Positions 46,715 to 59,734 of a stretch of DNA of 64,000 nucleotides are shown here, in pieces. The position numbers were made by a program, and so were the translations under genes. Origin of the DNA: Corynespora cassiicola (taxonomy: Eukaryota > Ascomycota > Dothideomycetes > Pleosporales > Corynesporascaceae). The stretch spans positions 5,208,001 through 5,272,000 of the forward strand of contig JAEUWY010000002.1 in assembly GCA_022059125.1 (NCBI GenBank), read 5' to 3'. The notes beneath the pieces were generated by a model. The model was not told where the DNA came from. It made no database searches and saw only the letters and a program-made list of their open reading frames with translations. Positions within the stretch are counted from its first letter, which is position 1; the number at the start of each line of letters is the position of its first letter.

Positions 46715-46800
46715 CTCCGCTTGGTGTAGTTGGTTTATCACGTTCGACTGTAATATCTGTTGTAATCGAAAGGTCCCTAGTTCGATTCTGGGAGCGGAGA
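46715..46800 (+). tRNA. tRNA-Tyr (anticodon GTA) with an 11-nt intron
   Basis: The cloverleaf was read by hand. Acceptor stem CTCCGCT (46715-46721) pairs perfectly with AGCGGAG (46793-46799), discriminator A at 46800. D-arm GTG/CAC. Anticodon stem TTCGA (46743-46747) pairs with TCGAA (46766-46770). T-arm CCTAG-TTCGATT-CTGGG. The anticodon GTA lies at 46750-46752, and positions 46754-46764 form an 11-nt intron just 3' of base 37, the canonical place. C1-G72 is the known eukaryotic tRNA-Tyr identity pair. The CCA end is not encoded, as usual for nuclear genes. Confidence 0.93.
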
Positions 46801-47532: not shown

Positions 47533-50500
47533 ATGGAAACCATCAGCAGACTCCCGCGGCGCCTCACCCAGCTCTACTCGGACACAAAGGCCTCCTGCGA
47601 TGCCGTCGTGGACCAGGACACGCCTTCGGCCCAGCCCGAGGTGAGCGCGCTGCACCGCAAATTCCGCATACAAAAGGACAGGCTCATTGCCTGGGGCATG
47701 GACTGGAGCGACAATACCCAGGAGAAGCAGGGCGACATTGCCGAGAGCGTCGAGCGCGCCGGCCTCACCGAGACGGTAACGAGCGTGTTGGGCACCATCA
47801 AAGACATTCTGGATGAGGCCGAGGGCATGCATCCGCCCGCCTCGCCCGCCGGCGCAAAGACAGTGTCTGGGGAGAAGAGCGGGCGGCAGCCCGCATCTGA
47901 TGTACCCTCGTGGGCGGCCTCCGACCGGTCACGGTACGAGGACCTCGCCAAGGACCTGACCACCTCCATAGACATTCTCTACAATCTCTCACGGACCCGC
48001 AAGACGCAGCGAGGCGGCACCCGTGGCCTCAGTCCTGCCACCAAGTCTGTCCCCGAGCCCATCAAACCGCCAACCGCCGCCTCCGTCTTCCTCTCGTCTG
48101 ACTACAACGCATCAGACGTTACTCTTATTAACCCCGCCACTCTTCCTCCCATCGCGTCTGTCCCCAACACCCCTTCTCGCCCCGACCTTCCGCCCAAGCT
48201 CGACCCCTCAGATCTCATCCTCCCCGAGGAAGAGCCCCCGCCATACGAAAGCGTGGGCAAGTCCTCGATCCGTGTCATCGGAAAGCTGCGGTCGAGACAC
48301 AGCTCGACCAACCCCTGGAAAACCGACACCGGCAAGTCCATCGAGACGCCCGTGCTCGTCGAATACGCCACCTACGACTCGACTTATCGCTTCACTGAAG
48401 TGTCTCCGCCCACCGACCGCCTGGAGGGCCTCCTAGCTATCCTCGCCAAGCTATCAAACGAGCAGTCTTTCCACGGCACACTGACCTGCAAGGGCTACTT
48501 TGAAGACCCAAAGCAGCCTCGATTTGGACTCGTCTTTGAGCTTCCCTCGTCCGTATATTCGAGCGCTGCCGACTTGAACAAGACGCCAGAAGAGTTGCGT
48601 CCCGTAACTCTGCTCAACGTACTCTCGACGGGGTCGAAATCCCTCCACAACTCCAACAGTGCCACGCCTCCCCTGGAAGATCGCTTCCGCCTCGCCTTCA
48701 CGCTCAGTCTCACCTTCAGCAAGATCCATGGAGATAGCTTCGTGCACAAGGACGTCAACAGCAGCAACATCATCGTCTTCCGAAAGAACAAACGCCTGTC
48801 GCCGAATAGCAGGGCGTTACACTATTCGCTTCGCTCTCCCGTCATATGCTCGTTCGACCTCTTCTCCGAGTACGACATTGAGCCGTCGAGCACGATGCCG
48901 ACCACATTGAACATTTACCGTCACCCGGAGGACCCTCGGTTCACGGGTGACAAGTCCAAGCCTTACGGGCCACAGTTTGACCTCTACAGTCTTGCGCTCA
49001 TTCTCCTCGAGGTCGGCCTGTGGCAGCCCCTGTCCGACTTGTGGAAGCCAAAATATACCCTTTCCGACTTCAAGCAGCGGGTGGAAGACGTGTATATTCG
49101 CCGACTAGCCTCCAAATGCGGGACGGCATACATGCAGGCTGTGCGCGACTGTTTCTGGGCTGCCGATCGAATTGCATCAGGCGCCGAGGACTTTCAGCAG
49201 CTCTACAACCGCATCCTCATCAGGCTTCAGCGATGCTGCCTGCTCGACGAGGTCGACCCAAGTTTTGAGTATGGAGAGTTGGGTGCAGCGACGACGGCTG
49301 CCGCCGGCTCAACACAGCCAAAGCGAAAGAGCACCCTTCCGGGCCAGGCAGCAGAGATGCCACCCACAAGCCCATCGTATAAGAACGCAAAGCGGTGGGC
49401 GATAGAAAAGGGTACGCAGGCACTGGAGCGGACAAGGTCGCTGTCTAAGCCCTCGCCTACCCACACGTCGCTGTCGCGCGGTTCGTCTCAGCGGTCGCAG
49501 GCTTCCAGTATCCGCCACTCCATTTCTCACAGTCTGCACCTGACTGGTTCGCGTGAAGAGATGCCCAGGACAATTGAATGGCAAGAGCGCGATCCGCTTG
49601 AAGAGTCGGGTACCTTGATCGCCACGCCGCCAGATTCGCAGGATAGAGGCGATGCGTCGTCGCTGTACAAGGAGCGCATGAGTCACGCAGCAAGCGTGAT
49701 TCAACGCGCATGGAGGGCTTCTCGTGAATCCTCTGGCTCGAAACAAAGGTCACCATCACTCAAGGACTACAAAGACAGAATAATCTTTCTCCAGAAGCAA
49801 TGGAGACAAAGAAAGGATGTTCACGGCAACGTCATATCGGCTCTTGGCGGTCACAGCATCACTGCTCTAGGCACCAACGCCATCACTGCGTTACCTTCGA
49901 CCGGCATTCACAAACTCTCACCAAAACTCTCACCAAAAAGCGAACAAAAAGCGTTTGAAGCAAAAATGCGCAGTGGCGACCCTGCAGGTAGTCATGGCAA
50001 CCAGCCAAGCTGGCACACTGATAACTACATCACCTCGTCCATACAGATCCAGACACCCGTAGATCCTCCTGCACGCCCGAAAATGCGTCTTCATCCAATC
50101 AAATTCAACGACGAAATTACCAGAGAATGGCACCAGATTATGCTCCCTCGTCTCGAACGGCTCATCGAGCGCGTGCTCAAGGATTCCGACGAGACTGTGA
50201 GCATCGACCTCGTGGCCATTGGCGAAACGGAGGTGAAGGCTCGACCTACCATCTTGGTGACTTGCACCAGCACTGCGAGGGTCAGGTCAATCCTCAACAA
50301 GAAGTTCAAGTTCGACTCCGAGACGTACGACCTCAAGGTTCGGAATGGCAAGGTCCGTCGGTCAAAGATGAACCGCTCCAACAGGCGCGGCAAGCTTCCA
50401 CACCGTTCCATGATGAATACTAACAACTTTCACGGCGACATGTCTGTGATGAACCCGTTTCATCAGCAGCGCCCGGTCTGTGGAGCATCCATCGGAGCCT

Positions 50501-51935
50501 TTCGCGGCGAGCACTTGCCTCCGGTTTCGTATGGAGGCGTGATTCTGGTCGATGATGAGCCCTTGGGCATGAGTGTACACCATCTTTTGGATGCTCCTTC
50601 AGATGATGAGAGCGACGCGGGAGATGATTACGGCCGCAATGATGTCACTCTATCCAGTGCGACGCGTGGAAACAACGACTGGCTCATGGGCATGGGCTCC
50701 CAGCCTGGCGTGCAAATCTCACCCACGTCGCAAGTGGGCATGTGGGACCTCGAGATCTCGGACGACGAGATGCGGAGTGATTTCGATGACGAGGACGACC
50801 AAGAATCGTTCAACTGGGATGAGTCGGAGTTTGACTCCGACGCCGATGAGTCGGACGATGACCTTGTTGACTCGCAGTCTTCGCGGACAACCATCGGCGA
50901 CATTGACGGTATCGACGTCGGCTATGGCGAAGAGATCAGAATCACCCAGCCGGCTATTGACGATGTCGATGAGGACTTTTTCCCGAGCGCAGAAGACCGC
51001 GACGACGACCACTTATCCTCCCACGAGCTAGGCTACGTCCACGCCTCCTCTGGCATCCGCCGCTGGAAGCGCGGCGGCATCCTTCACGAAATCGACTGGG
51101 CCCTCCTCAAGCTCAATAAAGACCGCCTGCAACCCTACAACCTCGTCCAAGGCGGCCGCCGCTTCTGCTTCAAGCAGGAAATGGAGCAGGACCAGCTCGA
51201 CATCTCGACCAAGCTCGAACACCCCATCACACGAAACTACTACAAGCGCGAGGAAGACGAGTACCCCAACGGCGTCGCAAAGGCAGACAGCCTCGCGGGC
51301 CTCAACGTGCACTGCTTCGGCAGGACCACGGGCCTGCAGGGTGGAATGGTGGGCTCGGCAATGAGCTCGGTGCGCATCTATCGCCGCAAGACGTTTTCGC
51401 GGAGCTGGCACGTCGCGGGCGGCTTTGGAGGTAAGAACGCACTCCCACAGGCTTTGAGATTGCGCAAGCTAACAGCTGAACAGTCGGTGGCGACTCGGGA
51501 GCCTGGGTCGTGCAGAATAGCTCTCACGCCGTCGTCGGACACGTCCTCGCCTGGTGCGAGCGCAACCATATCGCCTACATTTGCCCCATGGAGGTCTTGC
51601 TCGAGGACATTAAGCGCACGCTCGGCGCTAAGCGGATCTATCTTCCCGGCTCGAGCGAGGAGAGTAGGGCTTTGGCGCGGGAGGTCGGGAGGGTGGGCGC
51701 GGCGAGGGGCATACCCCGTCCTGCGGGCCATGTGGCGTTGCCGTTCCACACCAAAGAAGAGCACAAGGTCGAAGCAGTGGAGATTGGCATCAATGCGGTG
51801 GATTCGGGTGTTGATATGGCGGCGGATGCTGAGGGGGAGGGAGGGGAGGAAGGGCGGGGGCAGGGCCGACGCAGAGTCGTGTTAGGGGCTGGGGATTCAT
51901 GCAGAGAGGGAGGGAGAGGGAGGGGTTGCATATGA
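47533..51935 (+). CDS. HeLo-like / pseudokinase / IQ / trypsin-like protease fusion protein (1449 aa)
   Basis: Exons 47533-51430 and 51484-51935 (53-nt intron, branch GCTAAC). Residues about 1-150 are helical with [17 protein letters not shown], as in HeLo domains. Residues about 274-567 have a kinase fold: V-H405-K-D407-V-N-x-x-N412 for the catalytic loop, but F-D442-L-F instead of DFG and no evident VAIK lysine, so probably a pseudokinase. Two IQ-like helices follow (I723-Q-R-A-W-R and L753-Q-K-Q-W-R). A conserved block at about 855-960 leads into a protease domain: G-M-S-V-H1016-H1017-L-L, then a strongly acidic insert (about 1020-1175), E-I-D1188-W-A-L-L-K-L, and G-G-D1303-S1304-G-A-W. 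The GDSG motif is complete only after splicing. Order and spacing fit a chymotrypsin-fold serine protease. No signal peptide, so intracellular. Individual domains are inferred from motifs; the combination is discussed under findings. Confidence 0.82.
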
Positions 51936-52965: not shown

Positions 52966-53858
52966 ATGCCTCCAAAGAAAAGACTCAAGGCTACTTCTGA
53001 AAGTCCTCCAAAGTTTGACCTGCAATATCAGTGTCTGTAACTCACAAACCATTTTAACACCAAGCTGATGTTTTAGACATCTTACCCAAGTCCTTCGAAC
53101 TGATTGCGGATGCTCAAGTAAAAGCCAAGATGTTCACTCCCATTGGATTCGACGAACCACCCAATGAATACTTTCTCACATTCATGGATGAGCTACTCTC
53201 ATATGGAGATCGCTACTGGAACTCAGCCTGGAACCCGCCGATTACGCCTCATGACGAAGCTAAGAAGAAAGACCACATTGCTTCATACAATCTCCAACCA
53301 ATGTCATCTCGCGAGTTCAAATACTGTCAAATGATACACGGAGCTCTTCATCGCTGTGGTATGGGTGTCAATGGCGGATTTAAGAGGTTCTGCGAGCTAC
53401 ACCAAGAGCGAGGCTTCATGTCGCACAAGATCATGGCAGCTTTGATTATCAAAGATGACATCAGAGCAAGTAACTACATTGAGTTTGAGACAGTGGATCT
53501 TTCCACTCTACCAGATTACCCAAACACATTCTTCGAGATCGCAAAGGAGTATACTCGGATCGCTAAGAGGTATCTCGACAACGAGGGCACACCAGTCGCC
53601 ATGGAGGACATTGACCACAGAATCTCCCACGCCGTGAGTGTGGAGAAAGTGAACCAGGACAAATTGTGGGAGCTCCGTCGGGAAAAGAATTTGCTGGAGA
53701 TACGGGACAAGTACCAAGAGTTGTTGGTGGATGGCTCGCTGAAAGAAGCCTTGAAGAATCAGGCAAGTCTCCGGGCATGGCTTTTCGACTGCTTGCTAAC
53801 ATAGTCAAAGGCTTTGAACATTACTGTGAGAAAGATGAAGCAAGAAGAAGCTGGTTGA
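52966..53858 (+). CDS. Unknown protein with a GC-AG last intron (268 aa)
   Basis: Proposed exons 52966-53032, 53077-53762 and 53805-53858. The protein starts MPPKKRLKATSES (basic, possibly nuclear). Its middle has a conserved-looking region (GFDEPPNEYFLTFMDELL, EFKYCQMIHGALHRC) and a coiled-coil-like C-terminal helix rich in Glu/Lys. The second intron has a GC donor in perfect context (CAG then GCAAGT), a TGCTAAC branch site and ATAG acceptor, 42 nt; without splicing the protein stops after 13 more codons. The first intron donor (GTCTGT) is weak, and this exon junction is my least secure. No family recognised; no signal peptide or membrane helix. Confidence 0.6.
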
Positions 53859-57416: not shown

Positions 57417-59734
57417 CTAGCCCAGGCGTACGCTCTGGATATTGTGCGGAAAGTAGTCCCTGAGATCCCTTTTCTGCACGTCTTTGGTCCATTCCCAGGC
57501 GCTTGGATCATCAAGTCCAAACAAAAACTGACCATTGGTAAGACAAGTCGCCTCAAGGCGCACAAGACCGACTCGTTTCGAGACACCACCCCTTGATTGA
57601 ACGAGTAAACCATACTTATGGGCGATGATTACGCACACAACGGTCATTTTTCCAGGCTCATGGCAGATATCGTGCGTGTTTGGGAGGCTGTGCGTAAATG
57701 ATAGAGGCCAAACGAGAGCTTTTCTGCGTGAGCCTATGTAATGGACTACCGAAAACGTTGTTGAATCCCCAAGTAGCAAGTGGTCGATATATAAAATACC
57801 ATTTGGCGCGGTACATCCTTTGTAGTCCTTCCACTCTACGAAGGGGACGTTTAACACCTCGGTTTCTAGTCGTAGAATTGGTGTATACCCGAGTGTGTCG
57901 TAAGATTTGCCAGATGCGAGATCATTAGCGAAAGCTTCGTTGACTGCTACGAGTCTCCCGTCTTGGGTCTCCACATGAACTGGGACAACTAAACTGTCCT
58001 CTATATCACAACCAAGTGACATTTCATCAACAGATGCCTTCCAGCCGGCCCAGGACCAAGAAGGGAAGCCTTTTCTTTCTGTGACGGGATGCTCTGGAGG
58101 ATGGTAGTCTGATGGGTACCACTGGAGGCCCCAGAGAAGAGCTCCAGCTATGTCGTCTTGCTTCAGAATGTGGGTATCTGCCAGTAGACTGTCGCGATCC
58201 TTGTTCATCATTGTGTATCCAGTCCAACGAATTGGTAAACCCCAATAAGTTTCGATCGGGGGCTTGAGATGAGCGCAAAAGGTAAATAAGCCCTCCACGG
58301 CGTTAAGTATATCGTCGTCATATGTCAACTTCCGGTGGAAATAGTCTCTCAAGAGCGGCATCAGCCCCGATGGGTTTGAATTTTCGCCATAATACTCAAA
58401 ATGGCTGTGGTAACGATTGATGCGCCAACCTCTTCTGAGGGCGGGCAAGTCAAGATGGTGATCTTCCAATTCTAACAAAGCCCCGCATTCGAACATTACC
58501 TGTTCGTCAGTGAAGACTAAGAGCCTACGGGAGAAGAAGCTTTCTTGAAAGGTCCATCCCCGTGTGGACCACGCTGAGCGGGATAAAGAATCTCCGGGAT
58601 ATTGCAAACGCGCGGCCCACTTCTTCCCGTTCAGTTTGATTCTTGGTCTTTTTTCCCGTGGCCGCATTTGAACGCCTGGAAGACCATGCGAAGATCGATC
58701 TCCAGCAGCAGCAACGATCGTAACATACGCGTGATGGTCTTGAGAGCGAGTCAGCGTTCAGTACGTTTCGACAGTGCTGAGAGACATACATATAGAGTCC
58801 ATATGGCGCAGCTGTTGTCGTTTTTCTTCCGCGTTATCCTGGTTGATACATATTTGGTCGACCCAAAGATAACGAAGCCCAATCTGGAGCGTCACTACCA
58901 TCGCATCTTCGATAACTCTTGGAAGTTGTATGATGGACCCATCCAGTGTTTTTAGTCCGGTCATAGGACTGCTTTGTCTGGATTTACAAGATGGAGGACC
59001 CCAAACATAGCTGAGAGCGGCGTAACGATCTAGATCTGGAAGTATGGTGACAATTTTGGCTTTACAGTCGATCAACCTAAGCATTGAAGGTGCGACTGGT
59101 TGTAGTCGTGGCTCACGACAGAGTTCAGTATGATTGATTTCACATTGAGTGATCCATCTTTTGATGACTTCGTAGTCGATAGATTGGGTTTGGATATCCG
59201 GATGATGGGACTCGGACGGTTCACCGTTTCCCACAGGTACGATATTTCTGATAGTTTCGCGACGACAGCCTAATTGGGAGCCATCATCATTCCTAAACTG
59301 GATATCGATGTAGTCAGGATAACTGGACCATCGTTCGAGCCATATTTTAATACTTTTTCCTGGTTTTAACTGGTAGTCGTCGGGTAAGATTGATATGTAG
59401 AATCTACATAGTGGGCATGTGGAACCCTCGGAGATGGAAAGCTCGACATTGGCAGAACATCGATTGTATCGATTGTTTATTATCGGATAATCCATCACAT
59501 CGTCAAGATTGACCTTCTGACATTGTGTGCAAAGGTCACTGTTTTGCCAAGTCCGTTCATCTTCGGTGAAATCGAGGTTGGTGTTGCGAACTGGGTTTTG
59601 GGTTGAATCCCTTATCCGGACACTGGTGCCTAAAGAGACTCAGTACGTCAGGCGGCGATGCGCAAGATCCAAATGAGGGCCCATTGATACTCACCTTGCT
59701 TAGAAGTCTCTATCCCCATGTCTGCACTATTCAT
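57417..59734 (-). CDS. HET-domain (heterokaryon incompatibility) protein (733 aa)
   Basis: Exons on the minus strand: 59734-59695, 59629-58790 and 58738-57417, in frame (introns 65 and 51 nt). The protein starts MNSADMGIETSKQ, followed by C-T-Q-C and a later C-P-L-C pair, possibly a zinc-binding N-terminus. The HET domain shows its three blocks: RYAALSYVWG, LRYLWVDQICINQ and WSTRGWTFQESFFSRRLLVF. The block HHAYVTIVAAAGDRSSHGLPG joins blocks 2 and 3 across intron 2. The long C-terminal region (WSWAGW, PILRLETEVL) is typical of HET proteins. HET domains trigger cell death when fungal strains of unlike type fuse, and are related in fold to TIR domains. No STAND/NLR module is fused. Intact in this sequence. 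Confidence 0.92.

Follow-up and report, generated by a model that had tools for sequence, protein, structure and literature searches.

A gene of Corynespora cassiicola, lying in a window of 64,000 nucleotides (contig JAEUWY010000002.1, positions 5,208,001 to 5,272,000 of the forward strand; assembly GCA_022059125.1, 44.35 Mb in 23 contigs), encodes a protein of 1449 residues that joins a HeLo-type helical bundle, a degenerate kinase domain and a seemingly intact trypsin-like serine protease in one polypeptide. This combination had been proposed in a preliminary description made from the letters of the window, and our analysis confirms it, with the catalytic triad of the protease conserved across classes of fungi. 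On the basis of the sequence, the domain identities, the predicted folds, the conservation of the triad and the occurrence of the domains together in three classes, we consider it probable that filamentous ascomycetes have in this protein a signalling protease that is old, intracellular and vertically inherited; no other account is as well supported as a regulated signalling protease. Because the same fusion has been kept in several classes of moulds, the sequence evidence speaks for a regulated protease that is old and apparently undescribed, and against a fast-evolving killer.

The three domains and their predicted catalytic residues

The gene consists of two exons around one GT-AG intron (Table 1). 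Removal of the intron gives back GVGGDSGAW, matching the homologues, and exon 2 is conserved up to about residue 1356. The codon for the catalytic Ser sits on exon 2; the single-frame open reading frame (ORF) reads through the intron into another frame and misses GDSG, and the splicing proposed earlier, unlike that ORF, was correct. The top database match, P0001 from C. cassiicola strain Philippines (class Dothideomycetes), covers 94% of the query with 99% identity. In this public gene model, part of a downstream ORF (53130-53804) is merged with the protease gene, which is likely an annotation error. An NCBIfam scan of the exon 1 protein gave no match.

Conservation was read from 171 aligned rows, namely the window protein and those 170 of 313 fetched proteins that are 1100-1650 aa long, which comprise 101 proteins of a first search (the Dothideomycete-type set) and 70 of a third search. 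The kinase and protease motifs were identified by their sequence patterns. His, Asp and Ser stand in chymotrypsin order with GDSG, as previously described, in the window protein and in the family. His1016 is as invariant as the adjacent predicted catalytic His1017 (171 of 171 rows), and His1016, His1017 and Asp1188 are identical in 98 of 98 when the window protein is compared with 97 relatives longer than 1250 aa. GDSGAW is present in 91 of the 101 first-search proteins and in all 70 of the third search. Of the ten rows without it, eight are gene models in which the reading continues beyond the end of exon 1, while P0090 and P0093 stop before the junction, and all 161 rows reaching a correctly read exon 2 bear out the conservation of GDSG across homologues. 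A looser count of the Ser1304 column (165 Ser and 6 gaps) takes in tails of mis-spliced models that align there by coincidence, and the strict count is 161 of 171. In the C-terminal alignment of 241 sequences, the three columns are all spanned by 130 of the 292 rows, and His-Asp-Ser is found in 129. The sole exception is P0161, which has a different N-terminus, and the row of P0163, from which the His column is absent, has Thr for Ser.

The C-terminal structure model predicts a double beta-barrel chymotrypsin fold, in agreement with the trypsin-like fold suggested earlier, and this fold is predicted together with a preceding alpha/beta domain, as in the NAL1 type. The relation to NAL1 came from fold comparison alone; we take the short sequence 'GRTTG' to resemble both peptidase family S64 and NAL1. 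Pfam reported no protease in the window protein, where Peptidase S64 (PF08192) gave no match at E<=1, and weak matches only in relatives (Trypsin_2 in 1 of 34, E 0.0084). The large Asp/Glu insert noted earlier between the catalytic His and Asp is indeed present, and the His-Asp segment is net acidic in 170 of 170 rows. It is modelled with a low predicted local distance difference test (pLDDT) at model residues 163-227. Since the insert holds short stretches conserved between classes (e.g. TQPAIDDV), it appears to be more than a mere acidic spacer, and our guess is that it could serve as a regulatory surface.

The central domain matches DUF7580 (PF24476) with 29.3 bits against a curated cut-off of 27, and full-length profile searches of solved structures gave, among the matches listed, kinases only (best CLK1, E 0.0012, and IRAK4, E 0.0036). 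Its beta-3 strand reads VLVEYA where the VAIK Lys is expected; this position, placed by eye, holds Glu in 155 rows, Asp in 15 and a gap in one. The HRD Asp position is occupied by Asp in 98 rows, Asn in 64, Glu in five and Ser in four, and the DFG-like Asp is retained in 145 of 171. None of the 171 rows combines the VAIK Lys, HRD Asp and DFG Asp of an active kinase, and the earlier description of a degenerate kinase holds, with the Lys replaced by Glu or Asp in 170 of 171 rows and the HRD Asp variable. In the third-search set the HRD Asp is kept in 3 of 70 proteins (P0307, P0309 and P0312, none of them among the named Leotiomycetes or Eurotiomycetes) and absent in 67. Because the kinase Asp varies while the triad stays conserved, the kinase chemistry would be able to erode, unlike the protease chemistry.

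The HeLo-type start expected from the first description is seen as five predicted helices in the structure model (residues 10-26, 35-60, 69-75, 79-98 and 129-161) and as a PF14479 match of 24.8 bits for the whole protein and 30.6 bits for residues 1-575 alone, above the curated cut-off of 23.2. A HeLo match at E<=0.01 was obtained for 33 of the 34 members of a full-length alignment, which, like a second one of 30 proteins, was made of hand-picked members. The hhalign comparison with HeLo proteins of the same genome, in which six loci were used (L001, L002, L003, L006, L007 and L008) and L004 and L005 were left out, gave an E of 4.9e-6 with homology spanning most of the bundle. Fold comparison of the N-terminal model as a whole by Foldseek and VIA gave kinases throughout the 50 rows listed for each.

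Killing has been linked to an N-terminal helix with transmembrane propensity, according to the excerpts of PMC10197012. In the fusion family, the mean hydropathy of residues 1-28 is -0.57 across 165 members (highest -0.23; window protein -0.48), as against 0.70 to 1.30 in five HeLo proteins of the same genome, all hydrophobic. Likewise, when the highest-scoring run of 17 residues is taken from the first 40 of each protein, the family has an average of -0.10 (with P0307 highest at 0.86), as against 1.35 to 1.88 in the controls. The 165 members are those of the 171 aligned proteins with a start Met and an alignable N-terminus, and the controls are five of eight own-genome HeLo loci, with L004 (N-terminal extension), L006 and L008 (N-terminus or first exon unresolved) left out; L006 and L008, the nearest in architecture and the most relevant comparison, stand outside this control. 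A hydrophobic membrane-inserting N-terminal helix of the HET-S type was found in none of the 165 measured members, and the HeLo part of the fusion protein seems to differ from the HET-S killer type. Because MLKL bundles do not, to our knowledge, rely on such a hydrophobic helix, the HeLo bundle may bind membranes in another way, and it may have a non-lethal or MLKL-type role.

Table 1. Features of the fusion gene and its product (window positions; residues of the spliced protein)
Feature	Window position	Strand	Remarks
Exon 1	47533..51430	+	Residues 1-1299 and first base of codon 1300; open frame and splice junction
HeLo bundle, residues 10-161	47560..48015	+	Pfam PF14479 above cut-off; hhalign; predicted helices
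Pseudokinase (DUF7580), residues about 214-575	48172..49257	+	
Two IQ-like stretches in variable linker, residues 720-765	49690..49827	+	Motif count
Alpha/beta domain ahead of protease, residues 875-943	50155..50361	+	Model of P0137 residues 1-69; NAL1 match begins at model residue 1
Chymotrypsin-fold protease (predicted), residues 979-1356	50467..51653	+	Split by intron
His1017, predicted catalytic His	50581..50583	+	171/171 rows; sole one of the His pair kept in paralogue L015
Acidic His-Asp insert, residues 1019-1165	50587..51027	+	48 D/E and 6 K/R among 147
Asp1188, predicted catalytic Asp (HEIDWALL)	51094..51096	+	170/171 rows, 1 gap
Intron GTAAGA...CAG	51431..51483	+	GT-AG borders; 53 bases
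Exon 2	51484..51935	+	Residues 1300-1449 and stop
Ser1304, predicted nucleophile (GGDSGAW)	51495..51497	+	GDSGAW in 161/171 rows

Distribution and relatives of the fusion gene

A survey of domain order across homologues found HeLo, pseudokinase and protease jointly present in three classes, which were assigned from record names, with a check of four species. The protein searches considered the best 120 of 573, 299 and 844 matches, among which no Sordariomycete was recognised by name. Mean cross-class identity is highest in the first protease stretch (0.64-0.72), followed by the second protease stretch (0.49-0.51) and the HeLo bundle (0.45-0.53), the acidic insert (0.37-0.46), the alpha/beta domain (0.38-0.39), the pseudokinase (0.31-0.35) and the linker (0.18-0.23). 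Trees were calculated from residues 1-575 and 850-1360 of 41 of the 171 rows, chosen for readable names and midpoint-rooted for drawing only, and in both Dothideomycetes (15), Eurotiomycetes (13) and Leotiomycetes (12) each form one side of a branch with high support. The two trees conflict on the order of the three classes and both carry long-branch warnings; because of this disagreement, the long branches and the midpoint rooting, our conclusion goes no further than the placing of each class on one side of a branch. The Candelariomycete record P0309, with HeLo and DUF7580 among its precomputed domains, aligns over both halves and takes a different position in the two trees. One old fusion, inherited vertically, would be the simplest account. 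A search of the same genome with the C-terminal part listed, apart from the gene itself, a single match (27% identity over 79 residues). The class-level clades, together with the lack of a close paralogue among the own-genome matches, seem unlike the death-and-birth pattern of gasdermin and NLR genes (PMC10197012, in excerpt).

The variable linker between the halves differs between the classes, with median lengths of 89 and 69 residues in Leotiomycete and Eurotiomycete proteins, respectively, versus 248 in the Dothideomycete-type set. At least one IQ-like motif occurs in 91 of the 101 first-search proteins and at least two in 53, and Pfam matched IQ in 6 of 58 proteins at E<=1 and in 2 of 31 and 1 of 34 at E<=0.01. 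By pattern count, the motif occurs in none of the 25 named proteins of the other two classes (0 of 12 Leotiomycetes and 0 of 13 Eurotiomycetes), and the IQ-like stretches appear to be restricted to the Dothideomycete-type set. Control by IQ motifs and calmodulin was dropped as a family trait for this reason, and with it the earlier suggestion that an IQ part controls the protease.

The single own-genome match, L015:46-1761, is a distant paralogue with GDCG for GDSG that keeps the equivalent of His1017 and the Asp; it may be either inactive or a protease with a Cys nucleophile in a chymotrypsin fold. Three Pleosporales proteins, P0161, P0163 and P0164, carry the same protease domain behind different N-termini, with GDAG in P0161 and GDTG in P0163, which suggests duplication, domain swapping and loss of catalysis. 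At another locus of the genome (L010, G000:C1:2463338-2464051), a DUF7580 frame continues into a stretch whose DTG and HGHGTH motifs we take to be a subtilisin-like (S8) signature, making a second pseudokinase-protease fusion with another protease class. L006 and L008 encode HeLo-DUF7580 proteins with the catalytic loops HKGLRSAN and HKALRADN, further pseudokinases behind HeLo bundles. The fusion gene itself was absent from the own-genome HeLo search result, a six-frame search scoring best candidates only.

In the window, a HET-domain gene lies on the other strand about 5.5 kb downstream (57417-59498; PF06985 with 76.3 bits on ORF 58758-59498). Just upstream, at 46715-46800, ARAGORN in its bacterial setting reported an odd tRNA-like sequence with a four-base anticodon, which may be a tRNA with a misread intron.

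Proposed mechanism and alternative readings

If the protein is an active intracellular enzyme, as we infer, its output would be the C-terminal chymotrypsin-fold serine protease with His1017, Asp1188 and Ser1304, and its N-terminal half would be the controller, in which the HeLo bundle and the kinase-shaped domain without kinase chemistry act as latch and scaffold. The pseudokinase would receive a signal in the form of a ligand, a phosphorylation or a partner; this would alter the packing or self-association of the bundle, and the altered bundle would release or cluster the protease to make specific cuts in a substrate, perhaps a transcription regulator by analogy with Ssy5 and NAL1. We put forward more tentatively, as somewhat less likely true than false, that the family is a receptor protease conserved across Pezizomycotina classes, in which an MLKL-like switch drives site-specific proteolysis and not membrane rupture, the killing helix having been lost and the output being NAL1/Ssy5-like; this would be a signalling use of the necroptosis module.

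Several points weigh against a regulated signalling protease of this kind. The kinase-loop Asp is retained in 95 of the 101 first-search proteins, so that, going by this residue alone, some kinase activity may persist in this set. Ssy5 is linked to the family by a weak Pfam S64 match in 2 of 58 relatives (best E 0.23), and the C-terminal profiles found no match up to E 10 among the sequences of solved structures (PDB). Moreover, the N-terminal model is of modest quality (mean pLDDT 69.0, predicted template modelling score 0.57), and the two halves, joined by a variable linker, were modelled separately.

The preliminary description had proposed a single-chain sensor and executioner. Of this proposal, a regulated protease in a single chain can reasonably be upheld in view of the conserved triad, whereas the HeLo part as executioner finds no support. 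According to that proposal, an allorecognition or defence signal would activate the protease, and a cut of its own chain or of a partner would free the HeLo bundle to permeabilise the membrane. The HeLo homology found by both Pfam and hhalign and the HET-domain ORF nearby are consistent with such a role, and a review (PMC12881547, in excerpt) describes some HELL domains in MLKL-like kinase or pseudokinase proteins, as well as gasdermin-controlling proteases, many of which have several domains and some of which are joined to predicted kinase-like domains. However, the hydrophilic first 28 residues of all 165 measured members contrast with the hydrophobic ones of the five own-genome HeLo proteins, the family forms class-level clades with no close C-terminal paralogue among the own-genome matches, and no gasdermin gene was recognised in a Pfam scan, without a gasdermin model, of 16 of the 42 other window ORFs of at least 180 aa. 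We therefore consider an executioner unlikely, and the cell-death reading is the weak part of the earlier interpretation.

Slightly less likely still is a self-processing scaffold, in which the protease would make a single cut, in its own chain only, as Ssy5 does when it matures, and the HeLo-pseudokinase part would then signal. Ssy5 cleaves itself between prodomain and catalytic domain (PMC12958826, in excerpt), and the segment leading from the alpha/beta domain to the protease is poorly predicted here, with pLDDT under 50 at model residues 76-89. Against this, the first protease stretch is the best conserved between classes and the second is about level with HeLo, which seems to exceed the need of a single cut, although the argument is weak. 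That the protease fold serves for binding and does not catalyse, we hold to be very improbable. Divergent relatives do change the nucleophile, as in the GDAG, GDTG and GDCG of P0161, P0163 and L015, but GDSGAW is present in every family row reaching a correctly read exon 2, with the His complete in all rows and the Asp in all but one.

Bundles of the HeLo and MLKL kind are taken for killing modules, and fungal proteases connected with cell death for activators of gasdermin. In the fusion family, a bundle is conserved together with a degenerate kinase and a predicted chymotrypsin-fold protease but lacks the hydrophobic helix that the killers have, which suggests that an MLKL-like arrangement may also act as a general switch. 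The homologues listed bear names such as hypothetical, uncharacterized, het-s, HeLo, DUF7580, ATP-binding or protein kinase, with no protease among them, incomplete names aside. Because Pfam matches are absent or weak and no record is named a protease, a conserved regulatory protease of moulds may have escaped notice.

Comparison with known systems

The earlier remark that no described system with the order HeLo-pseudokinase-protease was known to its author agrees with the literature matches listed, which in title or opening of the abstract give no description of a HeLo domain, a pseudokinase and a trypsin-like or chymotrypsin-fold protease in one fungal protein, in a coverage mostly outside subscription papers. 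The term 'DUF7580' did not occur in the papers searched, mostly without subscription literature, and the excerpts of a survey of fungal NLR effector domains contain neither 'trypsin' nor 'serine protease' (PMC9815663). Each domain is known, and it is the domain order and its deep conservation that appear undescribed.

Among helical-bundle proteins, MLKL and the fungal HELL-kinase proteins likewise combine a bundle with a pseudokinase or kinase; a protease follows in the fusion protein, unlike in these proteins, for which none is mentioned in the excerpts of PMC12881547. HET-S and other HeLo killers share the HeLo homology but have the hydrophobic N-terminus that the measured fusion-family members lack. 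L006 and L008 have the same first two domains in the same order (DUF7580 of L006 by eye), with no protease within the open frame shown. The HET-Q2-like (Q2L) gasdermin-activating proteases resemble the fusion protein in joining a protease to control domains, but, according to the excerpts of PMC10197012, they are mostly of the S8 or CHAT type and clustered with gasdermin genes, whereas the fusion is predicted to be chymotrypsin-fold and vertically inherited. Some fungal gasdermin-controlling proteases are fused to repeats (PMC12881547, in excerpt).

The closest resemblance in the output domain is to NAL1 and Ssy5. Rice and maize NAL1 (NARROW LEAF 1) has about 17% identity in the aligned part, with a solved chain of 388 residues, far shorter than the fusion protein, and the C-terminal profiles of the fusion family gave no match to it at the sequence level; we know of no HeLo or pseudokinase domain in NAL1. 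Maize NAL1a is a trypsin-like protease degrading a TOPLESS-like corepressor (PMC12915138, in excerpt). Ssy5 of yeast (peptidase family S64) resembles the fusion protein as a chymotrypsin-like protease of a fungus in which a large N-terminal part exerts control. As far as the excerpts of PMC12958826 describe it, its triad is H465, D545 and S640, and it is kept inactive by a prodomain that it has itself cleaved off; once a signal has brought about the breakdown of this prodomain, it cuts latent transcription factors; unlike in the fusion protein, prodomain residues 1-164 are predicted to be disordered, and HeLo and pseudokinase domains go unmentioned there. Compared with Ssy5 and NAL1, the fusion family has the same kind of output domain, predicted from fold and motif, under a different control half, an MLKL-like bundle with a pseudokinase.

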